Origin: Bacteroidota bacterium
Lineage (GTDB): Bacteria; Bacteroidota; Ignavibacteria; UBA10030
Length of the DNA: 34,368 nucleotides
Reading direction: 5' to 3'
Assembly (NCBI GenBank): GCA_015661185.1
Contig: JACVXU010000010.1
Coordinates: 1 to 34,368, forward strand
Made by a program: the position numbers and the translations under genes. Position 1 is the first letter of the stretch. Every line of letters starts with the position of its first letter. Below the pieces are notes generated by a model that saw only the letters and a program-made list of their open reading frames with translations, did not search any database and had not been told where the DNA came from. This document shows positions 8,575 through 33,110 of this stretch, piece by piece.

Positions 8575-8791
8575 AGTCTAAGAACTCAGGAATCGAAACA
8601 GGCGCAGCCGCTCCGGAGTATCATCACTGAAAGCAACCAAATCGATTCGGCTGTCCGATGAAGCGCAGTGAGCGCGGAGATGTTGATCCTACGGTAATCT
8701 GACCGGGATATTTACCAAAAAATGAGTAGAAATTCAAGCTATCTTGTTTGGCACGACCTTTGTGGAACGGTTTGGCCTCTGGTTGAGCAAC

Positions 8792-23861: not shown

Positions 23862-24132
23862 TAGGAGGTTGCTGAAAAAGCACGCCATCGACTGAAGTCC
23901 CAGCCCGACTTCGCCGATCCAAGTCGGTCTGGCGGGCCAGCCCGCCTCGATGCATCCGATGAGGCTGGCGGGGACGTCTTTGAAAATGCGAAACCCTTTC
24001 CCGAAGGGACCCTGTCTTAGAAGCCTCTCGCTTCGGGACGGGCGGGTTTCGTGAAAAACGAGGCGTCCGATTTACCCCGTGCAACGGGGCGAGTCGGATG
24101 GCGTAGAGAAGCGGTTTTTCCGCTTCCTCCTA
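23862..24132. repeat. 271-base hairpin-rich element with terminal inverted repeats (MITE-like)
   Basis: This fills nearly all of the gap between the esterase and a cytochrome gene; no gene is seen inside. The ends are inverted copies: TAGGAGG (23862-23868) and CCTCCTA (24126-24132), and the likeness continues inward (a GAAAAA stretch, then ACGCCATC(C)GACT). Inside are perfect hairpins: CCGACTT/AAGTCGG (23905-23927), GGCGGG/CCCGCC (23931-23946), the nested CGAAACCC/GGGTTTCG (23989-24051) and TCCCGAAG/CTTCGGGA (23999-24038), CCCCGT/ACGGGG (24075-24089) and GAAGCGG/CCGCTTC (24108-24126). The right end supplies the stop codon of the cytochrome gene. It could be a non-autonomous element or a structured RNA; other genomic copies would decide. 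Confidence 0.6.
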
Positions 24133-24561
24133 GTTCTTCTTAGCGCCCTGCTCAATCCATTGGCGCAATATTTCGATCTGCCCTGCGGTGGGTATCAGTT
24201 TCTTGCTCGGGGGCATCTTTTTGCCGAACGGAGGAGCCGGACTCATCTTCTGAAGAAGCAGACTCTCCTTCGAGTTACCCGGTTCTACCGCTTTGCCATG
24301 TTTCCCTCCAGTCATCAGGGTTTCATAGGAATCCATGAAGAGTTGGCTTGGATGATCTTCATCCGCGTTGTGGCATGTTGCGCAGAACTTCTCGACAATC
24401 GGGGATACATCTTTCGTATACGAGATTTCCTTTGCAGGCGTTGCGGCGCTGCTGTCTTGCGCAGCGGCATTGCAGGTGACAACGACAACTCCTGCGAGCC
24501 ACAAGAATGAGAGATTGCCTCGTCGTTTCTCTTGTCCTCTGTTGGCTGTTTGAGTATTCAA
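24130..24561 (-). CDS. Secreted PSCyt-type mono-heme cytochrome c
   Basis: A 143-residue protein using a TTG start at 24561. That codon overlaps the TGA of the upstream gene in the sequence TTGA, and AGGGG lies about ten bases upstream. This start gives a clean signal peptide: a basic region, then SFLWLAGVVVV, ending before QDSS. A GTG at 24588 is an alternative with 9 more residues. The heme site is FCATCH (C60, C63, H64) and a likely axial methionine is M115 in KKMPPSKK. The layout SPIVEKFCATCHN ... LIPTAGQIEILRQWIEQGA is that of the c-type cytochrome domains fused to or encoded near planctomycete-type proteins. It probably carries electrons in the periplasm. The last codons run into the hairpin-rich element. 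Confidence 0.85.
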   Translation of the reverse strand: MNTQTANRGQEKRRGNLSFLWLAGVVVVTCNAAAQDSSAATPAKEISYTKDVSPIVEKFCATCHNADEDHPSQLFMDSYETLMTGGKHGKAVEPGNSKESLLLQKMSPAPPFGKKMPPSKKLIPTAGQIEILRQWIEQGAKKN

Positions 24562-25046
24562 TTGTTCTTCGCCCCTTGATTGATCCACAGTTTGATGGTT
24601 TGAATAGTACTGTCCGGAAGGTACGGCCCTCCTTGCGGCATGCGATCCCCGAATGGAGTGCCTGGAGCGAGCTTCCTGACCAGCGTGCTCGAATCCGCTT
24701 TCCCGGGTATCACTGACGGTCCATTGTCACCTCCTCGTAACAGTTGCGCAACGGACGAGACAATCAGGCCCCCGCTGCCGCCGTGACAACTGTTGCAGCC
24801 ATAGCGCTGGAAAATTGGTAAGACGTGGCTTTGAAACGAAACATCCTGACCTTGTTGCGGAGGCGGAGATGAATTCGATGTATCGCCCCCGGCAACAACA
24901 CTCCCCATGTCAGAACAGCCCGTGAGGACCAATGCCGTCATCATTAGTACGATTAGTCCGGCCATCAAGCCTACATATAACCGAGAATTGATTACTCCGT
25001 TTGACATCACAAGTCGCTTTCGCAATATATGATAACGAAATTCCAT
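24558..25046 (-). CDS. PSCyt-type mono-heme cytochrome c lipoprotein
   Basis: A 162-residue lipoprotein. A long basic N-terminus leads to a hydrophobic stretch (VGLMAGLIVLMMTALV) and the lipobox LTGC with C44. The heme site is GCNSCH (C84, C87, H88) and the likely axial methionine is M136 in DRMPQGG. The C-terminal DSTIQTIKLWINQGAKNN matches that of the next gene, so the two are paralogues. GGAAAG precedes the ATG at 25046; another ATG at 25007 lacks a ribosome binding site. It follows the CHRD gene by 91 bases and overlaps the second cytochrome gene by four bases, so the three genes probably share a transcript. Confidence 0.87.
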   Translation of the reverse strand: MEFRYHILRKRLVMSNGVINSRLYVGLMAGLIVLMMTALVLTGCSDMGSVVAGGDTSNSSPPPQQGQDVSFQSHVLPIFQRYGCNSCHGGSGGLIVSSVAQLLRGGDNGPSVIPGKADSSTLVRKLAPGTPFGDRMPQGGPYLPDSTIQTIKLWINQGAKNN

Positions 25047-25137: not shown

Positions 25138-26967
25138 TTATTTCAAAAGTGTCATTTTCTTTGTCTGAATCCCCGCGCCATCTGCCATCAGACTGTAGAA
25201 GTAAACACCAGACGGCAAGCTACTGGCATTGAAACTCATTTTGTACGCTCCAGGTTCCCTCACTCCGTCAAAAAGAGTGGCGACCAGTTGTCCGATCATG
25301 TTGTAGACCCTGAGGGAGACACGCCCGGCTTTTGCGACATCGAAGCTGATGACGGTCGAGGGATTAAACGGATTTGGATAGTTCTGATCCAGTCTGTATG
25401 CGCTGGGAATTTCCCCCTGCTCAATGCGTTCGACGCTTGTAGCCAGCCCGGTCGATCCAACCACCTGACCCCGAATTTCGCCGCCCGGATTGGTTGAGGT
25501 GTGAGCATTCAGATAGAGTCTTCCCTTCACCAACTCCCTGAGCAAGGCGTCAGTCAGAGGTTGAGTCGCATCCGCGCTTGTCCAGGTCCCCGTTGCAGTG
25601 TTGTTAACGAGAGAGATGCTTTTCACAACTCCTGCTGCAACACCCGCCGCCCCGTTGTGAAAATGCGCGGCACTTGGCGTAATGCCTGTGACGGTTTCGT
25701 CAAAGGTGACCGTTGCGTTGGGGTTGAGAATGACAGAAGCCGTACCCGAAGCGTTGGTAGTTACCGGCGGGACTTCCTGACCTCCATCGAGCTTCACGGC
25801 AAATCCAGCCCCAGAAGCCATGAGAACCTGACCGCGGATCTCACCGCCAGGATTGGCAGAGGTGTGAGCGTTTACGTATAGTCTCCCGCGCAGCAATTCG
25901 ACGAGCATTGAGTCTGTGAAGGGCTGTGTTGCGTCGGTGCTGCTCCAGACACCGGAGGCAGTGCCGTTGACGATTGTCAGGCTTTTTACGACACCGGCAG
26001 CGATCCCCGCAGCGCCGTTGTGGATATGCGCGGCGGTCGGAGTGAGGCCGTTGAACGTGACTATGTAATTGAGTTGCGTACCACTTGCGTTGAGGACAAA
26101 TCCTCCGGTCCCGCTGGCGGCGGTGGTCACAGGCGGCACCTCCTGGCTTCCATCAATCGTGGCCATGAATGCCAGCCCGGGAGCCGGTAATACCTGCCCG
26201 CGAATTTCCCCGCCGGGATTCGTACTTGTATGAGCGTTCACGTAGAGTCTGCCGCGCACCAGATCTCGCAGGAGCGCGTTTGTTAAGGGCTGTGTTGCAT
26301 CACCGGATGTCCAGGTTCCTGAGGCCGAGTTGTTGACGAGCGTGATGGTCTTGACGACTCCCGCCGCAACACCTGCAGGGCCGTTGTGGAAGTGTGCAGC
26401 GCTAGGCGTCAGCCCAGCAACTGTAACACGGAAACTTGCCGAGCCGCCCGGAGAGAGAAGAACGACAGCACTCCCCGTTGCCGTTGTAGTCGTAGGAGGC
26501 ACCTCCTGCGATCCATCGATCTTTGCAGAGAACCCCGCTGGAACTGCCTGCAGAACCTGTCCCCGGATTTCACCGCCCGGGTTGGCGGTAGTATGGACGT
26601 TCACATAGAGCCTTCCGCGAAGCAATTCTGTCAGAAGCGAATCAGTGAGTGGCTGTGTTGCATCCGCGCTACTCCAAACACCCGAAGCAGTATTGTTGAC
26701 GAACGTCAAGGTTTTTACCACTCCCGCAGCGACGCCCGCCGCACCGTTGTGAAAATGTCCGGCGTTGATGGTCAAGCCATTGACTGTGATTGTGTACGAA
26801 AGGGCTGTGCCCGCAGCGTTCAAAACAAACGCTCCGGTCCCCGTCGCAGTCGTCGTTACTGGAGGCACTTCCTGACTTCCATCCATCTTCGCCGTAAACT
26901 GGATCTGCCCGAAACCCATCGAAGTGAGTAACAATGCGATGGTCAAAAAGAGTAGTATTCGTCCCAT
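25138..26967 (-). CDS. Four-CHRD-domain secreted protein with type IX sorting domain
   Basis: A 609-residue exported protein. A signal peptide (MGRILLFLTIALLLTSMGFG) is followed by four CHRD domains of about 120 residues each (near 22-144, 145-264, 265-386, 387-506). Each has EVPP, a HxHNG(A/P)AG segment, DATQP and NPGGEIRGQV. The C-terminus (about 525-609) is a type IX secretion/sorting domain: NYPNPFNPSTVISF, then VYNMIGQLV, GVYFYSL and a KKMTLLK end. CHRD domains were first seen in chordin; their role in bacteria is unknown. Domains 1 and 3 resemble each other, as do 2 and 4. A strong sigma-54 promoter lies 58 bases upstream of the ATG. Two cytochrome genes follow. Confidence 0.95.
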   Translation of the reverse strand: MGRILLFLTIALLLTSMGFGQIQFTAKMDGSQEVPPVTTTATGTGAFVLNAAGTALSYTITVNGLTINAGHFHNGAAGVAAGVVKTLTFVNNTASGVWSSADATQPLTDSLLTELLRGRLYVNVHTTANPGGEIRGQVLQAVPAGFSAKIDGSQEVPPTTTTATGSAVVLLSPGGSASFRVTVAGLTPSAAHFHNGPAGVAAGVVKTITLVNNSASGTWTSGDATQPLTNALLRDLVRGRLYVNAHTSTNPGGEIRGQVLPAPGLAFMATIDGSQEVPPVTTAASGTGGFVLNASGTQLNYIVTFNGLTPTAAHIHNGAAGIAAGVVKSLTIVNGTASGVWSSTDATQPFTDSMLVELLRGRLYVNAHTSANPGGEIRGQVLMASGAGFAVKLDGGQEVPPVTTNASGTASVILNPNATVTFDETVTGITPSAAHFHNGAAGVAAGVVKSISLVNNTATGTWTSADATQPLTDALLRELVKGRLYLNAHTSTNPGGEIRGQVVGSTGLATSVERIEQGEIPSAYRLDQNYPNPFNPSTVISFDVAKAGRVSLRVYNMIGQLVATLFDGVREPGAYKMSFNASSLPSGVYFYSLMADGAGIQTKKMTLLK

Positions 26968-27024
26968 TTGTCCGCCCTTACCATGATAGTGAGTGTTGTT
27001 TTGTTAGCTCAGTGAAGGGTGGAG

Positions 27025-27040
27025 TGCAAACCTGGTGCCA
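27025..27040 (-). promoter_or_regulatory. Sigma-54 (RpoN) promoter in front of the CHRD/cytochrome genes
   Basis: Read on the minus strand the sequence is CTGGCAC-CAGGT-TTGCA: a perfect -24 TGGCAC (27040-27035), five bases, and a perfect -12 TTGCA (27029-27025). Transcription would start near 27015, about 48 bases before the CHRD ATG. It lies between the stop of a sigma-54 activator gene (27159) and its presumed target. The 118 bases upstream could hold the activator sites; a weak dyad CAATT-N8-AATTG is at about 27063-27080. Confidence 0.8.
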
Positions 27041-27158
27041 GGGGACCGATCTGGGAATGCCTTCAATTCAGGGCACAATTGGGCGTACATCTATGGAGAG
27101 ACCGTGAAATACTGTGGAGGGAAGGCAACATGGGTGGAGAAAGCGGGGAATCAAATCC

Positions 27159-28568
27159 TCACGGTGAGGTATCCTCCCCACGGAATCCAGCTAGATCGAT
27201 CCCGTAATCTTCAATCTTCTTATAGATAGTTTTCCGATCAAGGTCCATCAACTCCGCGACGACTTTGACGTTTCCCTGGTGCTGCTCGAGCATCGCCACC
27301 AGATATTTCGACTCAGCATCCCCCACAATTTTTTTCACATACTCCTTGAAGGGAGTCCCCGGCAACGGCCCCGGAGGCGAAACGTGAGGCGTACTTACGG
27401 GGGGGGCAATTCCCGGGATTTCAACAGCGGTAATCGTCTCCCCTTCGGTCTTTATCAATGCCCGCTTCATGACGTTCTCCAGCTCACGGATATTTCCGGG
27501 CCAACTGTAGCTGGCGAGGGAGGATACAATCACCGGCGCCAGATCTTTCACCCTGCCGGCAGACAGGTTGTTGTACTTCTGGACGAAATGTCGCGCCAGG
27601 AGCGGGATATCATCCAGTCTTTGTTTGAGCGTCGGCAGATGGATTGGAAATACATTCAGGCGATAGAACAAGTCTTCGCGAAACTGCCCATTCTTTGTCA
27701 TGCTCTGCAGATCCTTGTTCGTCGCAGCGATGATCCTGAGATCGACGGGAATCGGTTTGTTGCTCCCCACGCGTTCGATTTCCTTTTCCTGCAAGACCCT
27801 CAACAGTTTCGTCTGAAGATGGAGGGGAATATCGCCGATCTCGTCAAGGAACACCGTCCCCCTGTTCGCATCCTCGAATTTTCCGACGCGCGCTCGCTGG
27901 GCGCCAGTGAACGCACCTTTCTCGTGACCGAACAGCTCGCTCTCCAGCAGCGCCTCATTGAGCGCGGAACATGTTATGACAATGAATGGCTTCACCTTTC
28001 TCGAGCTGTTGTAATGAATCGCCTTCGCAAGCATTTCTTTCCCCGTCCCTGTCTCGCCGAGGATCAAGACGGTCGCATCTGTGTCAGCCACCTGACGGAC
28101 GAGTTTGAACACCTGTTTCATCGAGTCGCTCTGGCTAACGATGTTCGAGAAGCTGTAAGTCCCGCGCAACTCTTCCCGCAGCTGGCGGAGTTCACGATCC
28201 TTCCTCCGGCCCTCGAGCACCCGTCGTATTTTGATCAGAAGCTCGTCGTTGTCGCAAGGCTTGGTGATGTAGTCGTATGCACCATGTCGAATTGCCTCAA
28301 CCGCCGTCCGCACAGATCCGTACCCCGTGATCATCATGACCGGAGTCTCAGGCGCGCGGGCTTTGATCCACTCGAGTAATTCGATGCCATTCATCCCTTC
28401 CATCACGAGATCGGAAAGAACGAGATCAAACTTGTCGGGTTCAAATACCTGCTGTGCCTCCCGCGCGTTTGACGCAATCTGAACGGAGAAACCGTTGTCC
28501 TGCAACAGGGCAACCGTGGCGATTCTGAAGGCATTATCGTCGTCGACAACCAAGATATGGTCATTCAT
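27159..28568 (-). CDS. NtrC-family sigma-54-dependent response regulator
   Basis: A 469-residue activator. The receiver domain holds the acidic DDD at 9-11, phosphoacceptor D53 ([12 protein letters not shown]) and the switch lysine in ITKPCDN. The AAA+ domain has Walker A GETGTGKE at 171-178, the sigma-54 contact loop GAFTGA at 218-223, and Walker [12 protein letters not shown] Fis-type helix-turn-helix closes the protein ([20 protein letters not shown]). The sensor kinase gene lies 81 bases upstream. The nearest sigma-54 promoter is the one just past its own stop, so the CHRD/cytochrome genes are the best candidate targets. The ATG at 28568 has a weak Shine-Dalgarno. Confidence 0.96.
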
Positions 28569-28649: not shown

Positions 28650-30476
28650 TTAGACGGGAAGCGAAATGACAAATGTTGACCCTTCTCCTGTCGCACTGGT
28701 GACGCTGATGGTGCCGCGGTGCTGGCTGACAATGCCGTACGTGACCGAGAGACCAAGACCGACACCGCTCACCGTGCTTTTTGTCGTGAAGAATGCGTCG
28801 AAAATCTTGTCAAGGTTCTCCTTCGGAATCCCTACACCGGAATCGCTGATCGAAATCCTGATGAGCCCGTTCTCCTCCGCTGTCACAATACGTATAAGGC
28901 CTCCATCAGCCATTGCGTCCCGTGCATTGAGAATGAGATTGAGGAACACCTGCTTGAGCTTGTCGGCCGATCCTCTCACAACAGGCAGATGCTCCCGGAG
29001 GTCCAGCTTCATATCGATACGACTCTTGCTCAATTGATCGCCGAACGATTGGACAACCTCTTGCAGGAGGCCGTTGAGCTCGACAGGCTTCATCTCGTCC
29101 GGCACAAATGAATTTCGGTAGAAATCCAACAGTTGCCGGGTGAGCTTCGACATGCGCGTCACTTCTTCATAGGCAACTTCGATCAGCTCCCGCCCCTGCA
29201 GGTCACTGGGAAACCTGCCGAGGCTGGTTTTGAGACAGCTCTGGATGTTATGGATCGGGTTGTTGATCTCGTGCGCAAGCTGCGCGGTGAGCTTTCCCGT
29301 CGCTGCCAATCGTTCGCTCTTAACCAGTTCTTCTTGTGCTTGCTGCAGCTTTTGGAGCGTCTCGTCGAGATCGCGGTTACGAGCGACCAGATCCTGATTC
29401 AACCGGCCCAGCTCGGTGATTTTCTCTTTCAGCGACCTGCTCATATCGCCGAACCGCTGTGCCAGGAAGCTCACCTCATCCCGGCCATTTACTGCGATGA
29501 CATAGTCATAATTTCCCTTGCTGACTTCCGTTGTTCCCTGGACGAGTGCATTGATGGGCCTTGTCATGCCGACCGCGATTGCTTGCCCGATGAGAGTCGT
29601 GAGCACAAGAAAAATCAGGGAAATAATTCCGAAGGTGCCGAGAATGGGATTGAGCGACCTGGAAACCTCCCGGTCCGTGGACTTCATAATGAGATAGTTG
29701 ATCGGTTCACCGTCAGGGCCCGGCTTGTTCAGCTGAAAAGCCGTGCCCAGATAGACATCGTTTACCACGTTCAGTTTGAACACACCTGCCGAGCCCCGGG
29801 CCGACGGTTGGTCCAGGATACCTGACGCCTCGAGGGATGTTTTGAGATCATTCTGACCATGGGGATCGAGCGTCGAGAGAACGATCTTCCGCTGATGGAC
29901 CAGGAATATCTCGCTGTTGTTCGTCCATTGCTTCAGTCTCCCCAGCTCTTCATCTGTGATCGCGAAACCGAGAGTCAGCGTACCGATCACATCGCGGTCG
30001 ACAAGAAGCGGGACCGATGAGACACGGAAGACTCTCGTACCCAGCGACCACACATCTGTGGTCGAACCGGCTTGAAGAGCTTGTTGGATGGAAGCGCGGC
30101 CGGCAACGTCCCCCTCCAGTTTCTGGCCGAAAACGAGCTGCACCAAAGGCTTGCCTCGTCGGTCCGTGAGAACCAGCAGGTCGCTCACGGTGGTCTGGAT
30201 GAGCTCTTGCGAAAGCTGATAGGCGGTTTTTGGATCCAGAAGCTCGACGACGGCGCGCAGACGGGGGGATTCTGCAATCACCTGACAGCCCCTTGAAAGG
30301 ATTTCAGCCTCCAGACCGATGATCCCGTTGAGGGTGGAGCGATTGCTCAGCAATGCTTCTGAAAATGCATCCTCGATTCTGCTGCGGGTCCAGTAGTTGA
30401 TGATGAAGAATGTTATCACCAACAAGCTTAGGACCACACCCCAGATTGAGAGAAGAATTTTATAGCGGAATTTCAT
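28650..30476 (-). CDS. Sensor histidine kinase with periplasmic Cache-like domain and HAMP
   Basis: A 608-residue membrane kinase. The first transmembrane helix (about 8-28) is followed by a ~245-residue periplasmic domain of the double-Cache type (VSDLLVLTDRRGKPLVQL, GRASIQQALQAG, VSSVPLLVDRDVIGTLTLG). The second helix is about 280-303, then HAMP (TRPINALVQGTTEVSKGNYD), a coiled coil, HisKA with H402 (QLAHEINNPIHNIQ), and the ATPase boxes NLILNARDAM, DSGVGI and GVGLGLSVTYG. It resembles AtoS/ZraS-type kinases that pair with NtrC regulators, and the regulator gene lies directly downstream. The ligand is unknown; the cupredoxin and porin genes upstream hint at a metal, redox or envelope signal. 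Confidence 0.95.
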   Translation of the reverse strand: MKFRYKILLSIWGVVLSLLVITFFIINYWTRSRIEDAFSEALLSNRSTLNGIIGLEAEILSRGCQVIAESPRLRAVVELLDPKTAYQLSQELIQTTVSDLLVLTDRRGKPLVQLVFGQKLEGDVAGRASIQQALQAGSTTDVWSLGTRVFRVSSVPLLVDRDVIGTLTLGFAITDEELGRLKQWTNNSEIFLVHQRKIVLSTLDPHGQNDLKTSLEASGILDQPSARGSAGVFKLNVVNDVYLGTAFQLNKPGPDGEPINYLIMKSTDREVSRSLNPILGTFGIISLIFLVLTTLIGQAIAVGMTRPINALVQGTTEVSKGNYDYVIAVNGRDEVSFLAQRFGDMSRSLKEKITELGRLNQDLVARNRDLDETLQKLQQAQEELVKSERLAATGKLTAQLAHEINNPIHNIQSCLKTSLGRFPSDLQGRELIEVAYEEVTRMSKLTRQLLDFYRNSFVPDEMKPVELNGLLQEVVQSFGDQLSKSRIDMKLDLREHLPVVRGSADKLKQVFLNLILNARDAMADGGLIRIVTAEENGLIRISISDSGVGIPKENLDKIFDAFFTTKSTVSGVGLGLSVTYGIVSQHRGTISVTSATGEGSTFVISLPV

Positions 30477-30660: not shown

Positions 30661-31782
30661 CTAGAACGCGACTGCCAGCTGAAGAACGGTAAGATTGTCC
30701 CGCATGCCGGTCACCTCCGGCGTTCGCGTCTCACGGCGGACGATCTTGATGATCGTGCTCCTGTCGATATGATAGCCGATCCCCGCCTCGACTTCAAGAA
30801 CGTTGTTGTCCCACCGCAGAGAGGAATCGCCAATGTTGAGTTTTGAGAAGATCAGGCCGCTTACACGCGCAGCCGTATAGAAGCGCGGAAACCAGGTGTA
30901 TTTTGCTTCGGCATAGTAGCCGAGGACGGAGAGTTTTGTGTCTTCGTTCTCAAACGGGACCGTCCACTGGCTATAGACCGCTTCGCCGTTCAGCAGGAAC
31001 CGATCCCGGCTGAACTCAAAGTCAACTTCACCGATCAATTGCTGGTAGTGGTTGCTCCCCTCATCCCGGGGCAGGGGTTTGCCACCGTCAGCAAGGTATG
31101 CACCCATCGCTGCGGCAGCGCCAACAGTGAGTCCCATCATCGGCGTGTAGGCAAGGCGCACGATCTTGTTGAAATCCTGATTTTGATTCAACTGGCGAGA
31201 TGAAGTAGAACTAATGGTTCCATTCGAGCCCGCGATGGCGTAGTGCAAGCTGCCGATGTCGCCGTAGAGCATTGCGCCGATATCATAGATCCCAAAGTCG
31301 AGCAGGCGCATGCCCACTCCCTTGGCGCGATTATTGAGCACGTCCATGCGCACGACCACCTGATTGGGAAGTGATGTGCGATACTCATAGATCAGCGGCA
31401 GCCCATAGAGGAAATTCTTCGTCGGGAATCGCCGCTCTGCGAGATTCCCAAAGGGCATGTCGAATTTCCCCATTTGAACGTTGAAGCCAAGTCCGGCGAA
31501 ATCTGTTATTCGAATCGCAGCATAGTCGAAATTGATGGGATCATCTTCGAACGACCGGGTATTAACCAGGACGTACACGTTTTCTGTGACTTTGCCGTCG
31601 ACAAAGAGGTCAAACCGCCACCCGAATGTTGCATTGCCTTTGTTCACGACACGCGGATTCTGGGAGCGGGAGCTCTTCAAGGAATAGGCAGACGCTTCAC
31701 CACTCAACTGCACCTGGGCGAAGGTAGGGAGGGTCAGACTCGCCGCAAGTACAAGGAACACCAGGATGTTCTTCATAATCAC
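30661..31782 (-). CDS. Putative outer-membrane beta-barrel (porin-like)
   Basis: A 373-residue exported protein with a clear signal peptide (MIMKNILVFLVLAASLTLPTFA, then QVQ). The rest shows alternating strands typical of a barrel (FGWRFDLFVDG, VYVLVNTRSF, YAAIRITDFAG, FNVQMGKFDMPFG, YAEAKYTWFPRFYTAARVSGL) and ends in aromatic VAF, as expected for BAM insertion. QMGKFDMPFGNLAERRF recalls phosphate- or oligo-selective porins. No substrate can be assigned. The ATG lies three bases after the cupredoxin stop, so the two are translated from one transcript. Confidence 0.8.
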   Translation of the reverse strand: MIMKNILVFLVLAASLTLPTFAQVQLSGEASAYSLKSSRSQNPRVVNKGNATFGWRFDLFVDGKVTENVYVLVNTRSFEDDPINFDYAAIRITDFAGLGFNVQMGKFDMPFGNLAERRFPTKNFLYGLPLIYEYRTSLPNQVVVRMDVLNNRAKGVGMRLLDFGIYDIGAMLYGDIGSLHYAIAGSNGTISSTSSRQLNQNQDFNKIVRLAYTPMMGLTVGAAAAMGAYLADGGKPLPRDEGSNHYQQLIGEVDFEFSRDRFLLNGEAVYSQWTVPFENEDTKLSVLGYYAEAKYTWFPRFYTAARVSGLIFSKLNIGDSSLRWDNNVLEVEAGIGYHIDRSTIIKIVRRETRTPEVTGMRDNLTVLQLAVAF

Positions 31783-31785
31783 ATC

Positions 31786-32517
31786 TCAATAGGTGAAGTT
31801 AACATTGACGGCGTCGCCCCCCTTGACCGTCACACTCTGGCTGCCGGCAAGCTCCCGACCGCACCAGAACTTGACGATATACGTTCCGCTGGGGACATTT
31901 TTGATCGAATACGAACCATGATCGTCAGGGACCACAAAATATGGATTCTCGAGGATCAGGATGGTAGCGTTCATGTGGGAATGAATGTCACAGTAGACCC
32001 GAACAACCCCCGGCCGATCGAACCGAACGGACTTGGACGTTCCGGTCGGATATCGACCGAGATCGAACTCTCTGGGTTGCGAATAGGAAAAGACGTTATG
32101 AAAAAGGAGATCGCGATTCGGGAAGTCGACCGTCGTTCCGACGAGTATTGGCAGAACCTGGGGATGAAACGTGAGGTCCTTCTGATCCAGAATCGGATGA
32201 GTGGTTGGAGTTGCGAAATCTTGTCCCTTCAACGTTTCGCTTTCAAGATAGACAACAGCCTTCTCAGATAATTTGAACACTGTCGGGGGAGGAGTATTAC
32301 TCTCGGAACCCGTAAGCGCCGGTCGATGCGTGCTGTAACGGTCAATGATCGGAGTCTTCGGTGATTCAGGGTCAACCCTGGAAACGGTGATCTTCCCCCG
32401 GATCTCTCCCGGCTTCTTCGAATCCTGTGCCAGGAGGTGATGACCGAACGTCAGCGCTCCCGCGATGAGCAGGAACCCAAGAACCATCGCTCTTCTCATT
32501 TTTTGTGGCTCAACCAT
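31786..32517 (-). CDS. Periplasmic cupredoxin with C-terminal carboxypeptidase-regulatory-like domain
   Basis: A 243-residue exported protein. The signal peptide uses MRRAMVLGFLLIAGALTF, and GGAG lies eight bases before the ATG at 32517. The cupredoxin core (about 85-190) has a methylamine-utilization-like layout: VYLES, TFHPQVLPILVGTTVDFPN, then the copper ligands H140 (LLFHNVFS) and C176, H179 and M182 in VYCDIHSHMNA. Residues 191-243 (GSYSIKNVPSGTYIVKFWCG) form a small beta-sandwich of the carboxypeptidase regulatory type. It is a probable type-1 copper electron carrier or copper-binding protein. It heads the cupredoxin-porin-kinase-regulator run of genes. Confidence 0.88.
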   Translation of the reverse strand: MVEPQKMRRAMVLGFLLIAGALTFGHHLLAQDSKKPGEIRGKITVSRVDPESPKTPIIDRYSTHRPALTGSESNTPPPTVFKLSEKAVVYLESETLKGQDFATPTTHPILDQKDLTFHPQVLPILVGTTVDFPNRDLLFHNVFSYSQPREFDLGRYPTGTSKSVRFDRPGVVRVYCDIHSHMNATILILENPYFVVPDDHGSYSIKNVPSGTYIVKFWCGRELAGSQSVTVKGGDAVNVNFTY

Positions 32518-32675: not shown

Positions 32676-33110
32676 TTAGACTACTTGTTTCGCCTCAGCA
32701 ACACAGGTCTTGTCGAACGCATGGATGATCGTCGCCGCCACTTGATCCGATGTGTGACCTTCGATCTGGTACCGATGGATCATGTGGATGAACTTGCCAT
32801 CACGCATGATTGCGAACGATGGGGATGACGGGGGTTGGTCCGTAAAGTACTCCCGCGCCCGGGCGGTCGCCTCTTTGTCCTGCCCGGCGAAAACCGTCAC
32901 GAGTTTGTCCGGCACGACGGAGTGCTGCAGAGCCTTTGCCAGGGCCGGTCGTGCAGCCCCCGCAGCACAGCCGCAAGTCGAGTTGATGACCACGAGCGTC
33001 GTTCCTTTTGAGTTCGGGAGGACGGCATCGACATCTGCGGGGGTTCGTAATTCCTGCGCCCCAAGACGCGCAACCTCATCCCTCATTTGCTGTATCAATA
33101 TATCGTACAT
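32676..33110 (-). CDS. BrxA/BrxB-family bacilliredoxin
   Basis: A 144-residue thioredoxin-fold protein of the YphP/YqiW (formerly DUF1094) family, with the CGC active site at 46-48 (VINSTCGCAAGAARP). In Firmicutes these proteins remove bacillithiol from oxidised protein thiols; in this lineage the thiol partner is probably bacillithiol or a relative, which is inference. AGGAG stands eight bases before the ATG at 33110. A strong terminator follows. Confidence 0.94.
   Translation of the reverse strand: MYDILIQQMRDEVARLGAQELRTPADVDAVLPNSKGTTLVVINSTCGCAAGAARPALAKALQHSVVPDKLVTVFAGQDKEATARAREYFTDQPPSSPSFAIMRDGKFIHMIHRYQIEGHTSDQVAATIIHAFDKTCVAEAKQVV

Follow-up and report, generated by a model that had tools for sequence, protein, structure and literature searches.

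The minus-strand element at 27040-27025 is, with a probability of roughly 0.83, a sigma-54 promoter for the CHRD gene, one that would be opened by the adjacent kinase-activator pair through two tandem dyads. Systems of this kind are well established. What is new is the target, along with its exchange between relatives, and the tandem enhancer is a newly identified candidate. In the window, by which we mean the whole 34,368-nt stretch of DNA analysed, a promoter, a candidate enhancer, and an activator can be named concretely enough to be tested, in a lineage that is uncultured, Ignavibacteria-like, and equipped with ∼100 sigma-54 activator candidates, and the locus ties sigma-54 to bacterial CHRD proteins. 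A literature search for Ignavibacteria with sigma-54 and a response regulator, including sigma-54 targets in the lineage, found no paper, and the best matches of a search on "CHRD domain" or "sigma54" carried only sigma54.

The sigma-54 element and its neighbors

The element and the genes around it are as follows.

27025..27040, minus: probable sigma-54 promoter, TGGCAC-CAGGT-TTGCA (-24/-12); exact consensus, kept in six species
27014, minus: predicted transcription start (+1), 12 bases counted from the -12 C by sigma-54 promoter geometry; leader of ∼47 nt
25138..26967, minus: candidate target gene with signal peptide, four CHRD domains, and T9SS type A sorting tail (Pfam, NCBIfam)
24558..25046, minus: small exported CxxCH protein (PSCyt1; Pfam), possible second gene of the transcript; trails the promoter in relatives too
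24130..24588, minus: second small PSCyt1 protein (Pfam), possible third gene of the transcript; its listed start overlaps the previous gene
27159..28568, minus: sigma-54 activator (Pfam; sequence)
28650..30476, minus: sensor histidine kinase with weak dCache_3, HAMP, HisKA, and HATPase_c (Pfam); adjoins the activator in orthologous loci
30661..31782, minus: exported protein without family match, conserved upstream neighbor (synteny)
31786..32517, minus: cupredoxin-like exported protein, conserved upstream neighbor (weak Pfam matches below cutoff; synteny)
32676-33110, minus: BrxA/BrxB-family bacilliredoxin, conserved neighbor upstream of the kinase-activator genes (synteny)

As the original prediction had claimed, the full TGGCAC-N5-TTGCA consensus is aimed at the CHRD gene: the minus-strand element, TGGCACCAGGTTTGCA, faces this open reading frame with 57 bases separating it from the ATG and lies 118 bases past the activator stop codon on the same strand. 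Both the -24 GG and the -12 GC of a sigma-54-dependent promoter are present at the proper spacing (TGGCAC-N5-TTGCW). A scan returned no other zero-mismatch site in the window, again as predicted, and the nearest site that had been named, 8749-8764, reads TGGCACGACCTTTGTG and does lack the -12 GC. With equal base frequencies, an exact match is expected 0.016 times per window and about twice per genome, and the 4.33-Mb genome holds three, the same number as a reversed-pattern control. A perfect match is therefore not significant by itself genome-wide; the uniqueness that the original prediction relied on holds in the window, but as evidence for a promoter the match alone is weak, suggestive at most, and we rejected the genome-wide count of exact matches as proof. 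The sigma-54 matrix we used is approximate, and the conclusions are independent of its exact scores. No sigma-70-like site was found on the minus strand of the activator-CHRD spacer.

The neighboring gene had been called an NtrC activator. Its product has the receiver, the AAA+ domain with GAFTGA, and the Fis-type HTH of a two-component-class bEBP, so the family and the class fit, but it is AtoC/ZraR-like rather than NtrC itself, scoring 417 bits against the NtrC equivalog cutoff of 558.6 (TIGR01818) and also falling below the cutoffs for AtoC (485 versus 714) and ZraR (399 versus 760). The original prediction had further depended on an rpoN gene, and the genome encodes one of 481 amino acids (aa) that looks intact and carries the RpoN box ARRTVAKYRE. 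The 4.3-Mb genome contains ∼109 sigma-54 activator candidates in all, and several of its relatives carry similar numbers, making this an activator-rich lineage. At the other end of the proposed circuit, the T9SS type A C-terminal sorting domain of the CHRD protein scores above cutoff in both models (TIGR04183, 38.1 versus 23; PF18962, 36.4 versus 27); the protein is probably exported, with a predicted surface location.

Conservation of the element and a candidate tandem enhancer

Five further genomes in the family carry close orthologues of the activator at 65-80% identity (G000 is the analyzed genome and the other G numbers are relatives), and their loci share, where contigs reach, the bacilliredoxin, the cupredoxin-like protein, the exported protein without family match, the kinase, and the activator. 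TGGCA-N6-TTGC lies past the activator stop codon, in the same place and on the same strand, in all six species with a close orthologue, at distances of 121, 121, 121, 122, 130, and 131 nt from the stop, and it is the top sigma-54-like site of each of the six loci. The rest of the activator-promoter spacer is near-saturated, with 31-54% pairwise identity. It is this position and conservation, not the perfection of the match, that make the element significant.

Another block, TGAGGA-N6-TCCCCA at the stop codon of the activator, also proved conserved in the alignment, and with it came a pair of dyads that a repeat finder did not show.

27144..27161, minus: upstream dyad 1, TGAGGA-TTTGAT-TCCCCG, candidate activator site, center ∼-138; conserved block in six species, leave-one-out tandem rank 1
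27113..27130, minus: upstream dyad 2, TGTTGC-CTTCCC-TCCACA, candidate activator site, center ∼-107; found with the dyad-1-only matrix, beats all shuffles

The original prediction had anticipated a conserved dyad 80 to 150 bases upstream, and two in tandem are present, of the form TGnGGm-N6-kCCnCA and 31 bp apart in all six species. A matrix built from dyad 1 only finds the second copy exactly 31 bp on, with a mean score of 7.1 compared to a maximum of -1.3 over 3,000 shuffles. In leave-one-out scans nothing in any locus ranked above the tandem pair, and with a matrix derived from the two distant species alone, the G000 pair came out at the top of 34,320 positions. Counted from the predicted start at 27014, both centers fall within the ∼80 to 150 bp upstream where an enhancer's candidate activator sites would be sought, and by analogy they would lie where activators of this class usually bind; such sites can be 100 bp or more from the promoter (PMC4641369). 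The dyad-promoter distance differs between the two clades, being shifted by 9-10 bp, about one helical turn, in G007 and G021, which agrees with phasing without proving it since the shift may be a single event. Because dyad 1 overlaps the activator stop codon, conservation of its TGA could have a different cause.

Neither single nor tandem dyads disclosed a regulon beyond the CHRD locus. The single-dyad search gave 45 strand-hits versus 24 in the control, and the 21 other single-dyad sites that were checked have sigma-54-like scores of at most 12.2 within 260 nt, compared to 18.9 here, while a tandem dyad with zero or one mismatch has no copy beyond the CHRD locus within G000-G003. Because the tandem dyad is confined to this locus in these genomes, the activator looks dedicated to a single target.

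The regulatory module is not tied to an intact CHRD gene. In G002, promoter and dyads are kept before a different T9SS-tailed CxxCH protein, and in G003 they are kept before a 52-residue in-frame CHRD remnant (L037, 9102-9260) in which the signal peptide is fused to the last part of the T9SS tail; the small CxxCH genes come next in both. The module thus outlives its first gene, and since the promoter is kept in the same place even where CHRD has been swapped or gutted, comparison of these loci indicates that it is very probably real. The findings that could have overturned the reading in silico came out in its favor, and we regard the element's identification as a sigma-54 promoter as supported at the level of sequence.

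That the promoter is real but opened by another activator, with the adjacent pair acting elsewhere and the dyads belonging to a different regulator, strikes us as unlikely. There are many other activator candidates to choose from, and binding is beyond proof from sequence. Six species nevertheless keep promoter, dyads, and activator gene as a unit, the genome has the low-mismatch tandem dyad nowhere else, and similar dyads lie behind activator orthologues in other families (see below). No sigma-54-like site was found before the CHRD genes of G011, G016, G024, and G038, genomes in which no activator orthologue was detected, which also argues for the adjacent activator. In G020, TGGCACTCTGTTTGAT stands at -109 without the -12 GC, and rpoN is not detectable in that assembly, making absences in G020 uncertain. 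Counting against the link, G029 has a CHRD gene near the kinase-activator pair without a canonical sigma-54 site.

Similar sites in the genome and in distant families

The genome holds eight TGGCAY-N5-TTGCW sites, and three of them (on contigs C137, C109, and C47) are found on the strand of an activator gene and 119-201 nt behind it, where 0.014-0.030 would be expected for 60-130 activators (P ∼2e-6). The site-behind-activator arrangement thus recurs in the genome. This enrichment, together with the fixed-offset conservation in a near-saturated spacer, makes it very improbable that the match is due to chance and that CHRD transcription comes from an unrecognized promoter or from read-through of the kinase-activator operon, a reading to which the control-rate frequency of exact sites, the tandem arrangement of the genes, and terminator-like sites not above chance at the locus lend some weight.

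The two other sites have features of their own. On C109 (L046, 4501-4847, minus), a second exact sigma-54 match behind an activator gene precedes an 86-aa open reading frame that amounts to a stand-alone activator-type (Fis) HTH domain; promoter and mini-HTH recur in G004, G005, G015, G020, and G022 with 65-94% identity, and one possibility is that the mini-HTH is a built-in competitor for the activator's sites. On C47 (L162, 1501-1516, minus), TGGCAT-N5-TTGCA lies 176 nt behind yet another activator gene and near the point where a possible STAS-like (anti-sigma-factor antagonist) open reading frame begins.

Orthologues of the activator with at least 54% identity occur in 28 of 98 genomes of the order. 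Of 23 distant loci, eight carry TGGCAY-N5-TTG no more than 400 nt behind the activator, where 0.07 would be expected and two controls gave none; the element is absent from the other 15, so the promoter-activator link is not universal. Six of the eight element-bearing loci contain between them seven dyads that match the form strictly, against an expectation of 0.03 and zero in the control. Dyad and promoter are separated by 70-71 bases in G036, G060, and G077 compared to 72 in G000. Judged by eye from their N-terminal sequences, the genes behind these elements are exported-lipoprotein-like in G036 and G060 and ECF-type-sigma-factor-like in G074, G076, and G077.

The -12 C is normally near-invariant in sigma-54 promoters, and seven of the eight distant elements lack it. 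Behind the activator orthologue in L013, L015, L211, L212, L214, L215, and L219, the TGGCAY of the -24 region is intact and TTGA or TTGT replaces TTGC at -12. Genome-wide, G071 has seven TGGCAC-N5-TTGAA and no TTGCA. An altered sigma-54 behind these variants is not supported, given that the 11 genomes with a match share an identical RpoN box and a conserved HTH region; another promoter in G012 is canonical, which speaks further against it.

Taken more broadly, these loci could reflect a conserved "slot" made up of the kinase-activator pair and a fixed enhancer-promoter module, with cargo exchanged between lineages: CHRD, another T9SS-tailed protein, or a gutted remnant in the genus, and exported lipoproteins or ECF-like sigma factors in other families, where the promoters would have drifted at the -12 C (TTGA/TTGT) with the -24 region and dyads kept. 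We put this forward tentatively and would give it somewhat less than even odds. If true, such swapping of targets while enhancer and promoter stay fixed would make a clean natural example of regulatory wiring outliving its target.

Proposed mechanism and comparison with known systems

The promoter element with its conservation, the fixed geometry of the tandem dyads, an intact rpoN, and a complete activator are all computed directly. We infer that the dyads are bound by this activator and that transcription starts near 27014; how far the transcript reaches and the signal are likewise inferred. In the mechanism we propose, sigma-54 RNA polymerase would wait at 27040-27025 as a closed complex until the adjacent histidine kinase, on an envelope signal, phosphorylates the adjacent activator. 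The activator would then bind the two dyads, assemble, loop the DNA, and open the promoter, giving a transcript that would cover CHRD and perhaps the two small CxxCH proteins behind it too. Non-promoter binding of sigma-54 is known in E. coli (PMC4591121), but that this site mainly holds polymerase or blocks other transcription, and does not activate CHRD, is barely credible for an intergenic, correctly oriented element that in most of the species precedes the gene start by 57-83 nt and has a conserved upstream enhancer.

A promoter for an exported, probably surface-located target would fit the theme of sigma-54 control over the exterior of bacteria (Francke et al. 2011, PMC3162934). The abstract of that study names exopolysaccharide, flagellar, lipid, lipopolysaccharide (LPS), lipoprotein, and peptidoglycan genes, classes that differ from the CHRD target here.

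The closest relatives by family score are the AtoS-AtoC and ZraS-ZraR systems: in NCBIfam, activator and kinase score best against AtoC and AtoS, followed by the NtrC and Zra families, and these systems likewise place a receiver-AAA+-HTH activator beside its own kinase. They differ in that all scores here are below the equivalog cutoffs and in that the target is a CHRD/T9SS protein instead of short-chain fatty acid or zinc genes.

The regulators of pyruvate formate-lyase in Desulfovibrio (PMC4641369) resemble the present locus in layout, with an activator gene adjoining its target, a conserved sigma-54 promoter, and an upstream palindrome, and both systems were found by comparing related genomes. 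The activator, the palindrome, and the target are different, however, and the present locus is set apart by a first target gene that is swapped among close relatives.
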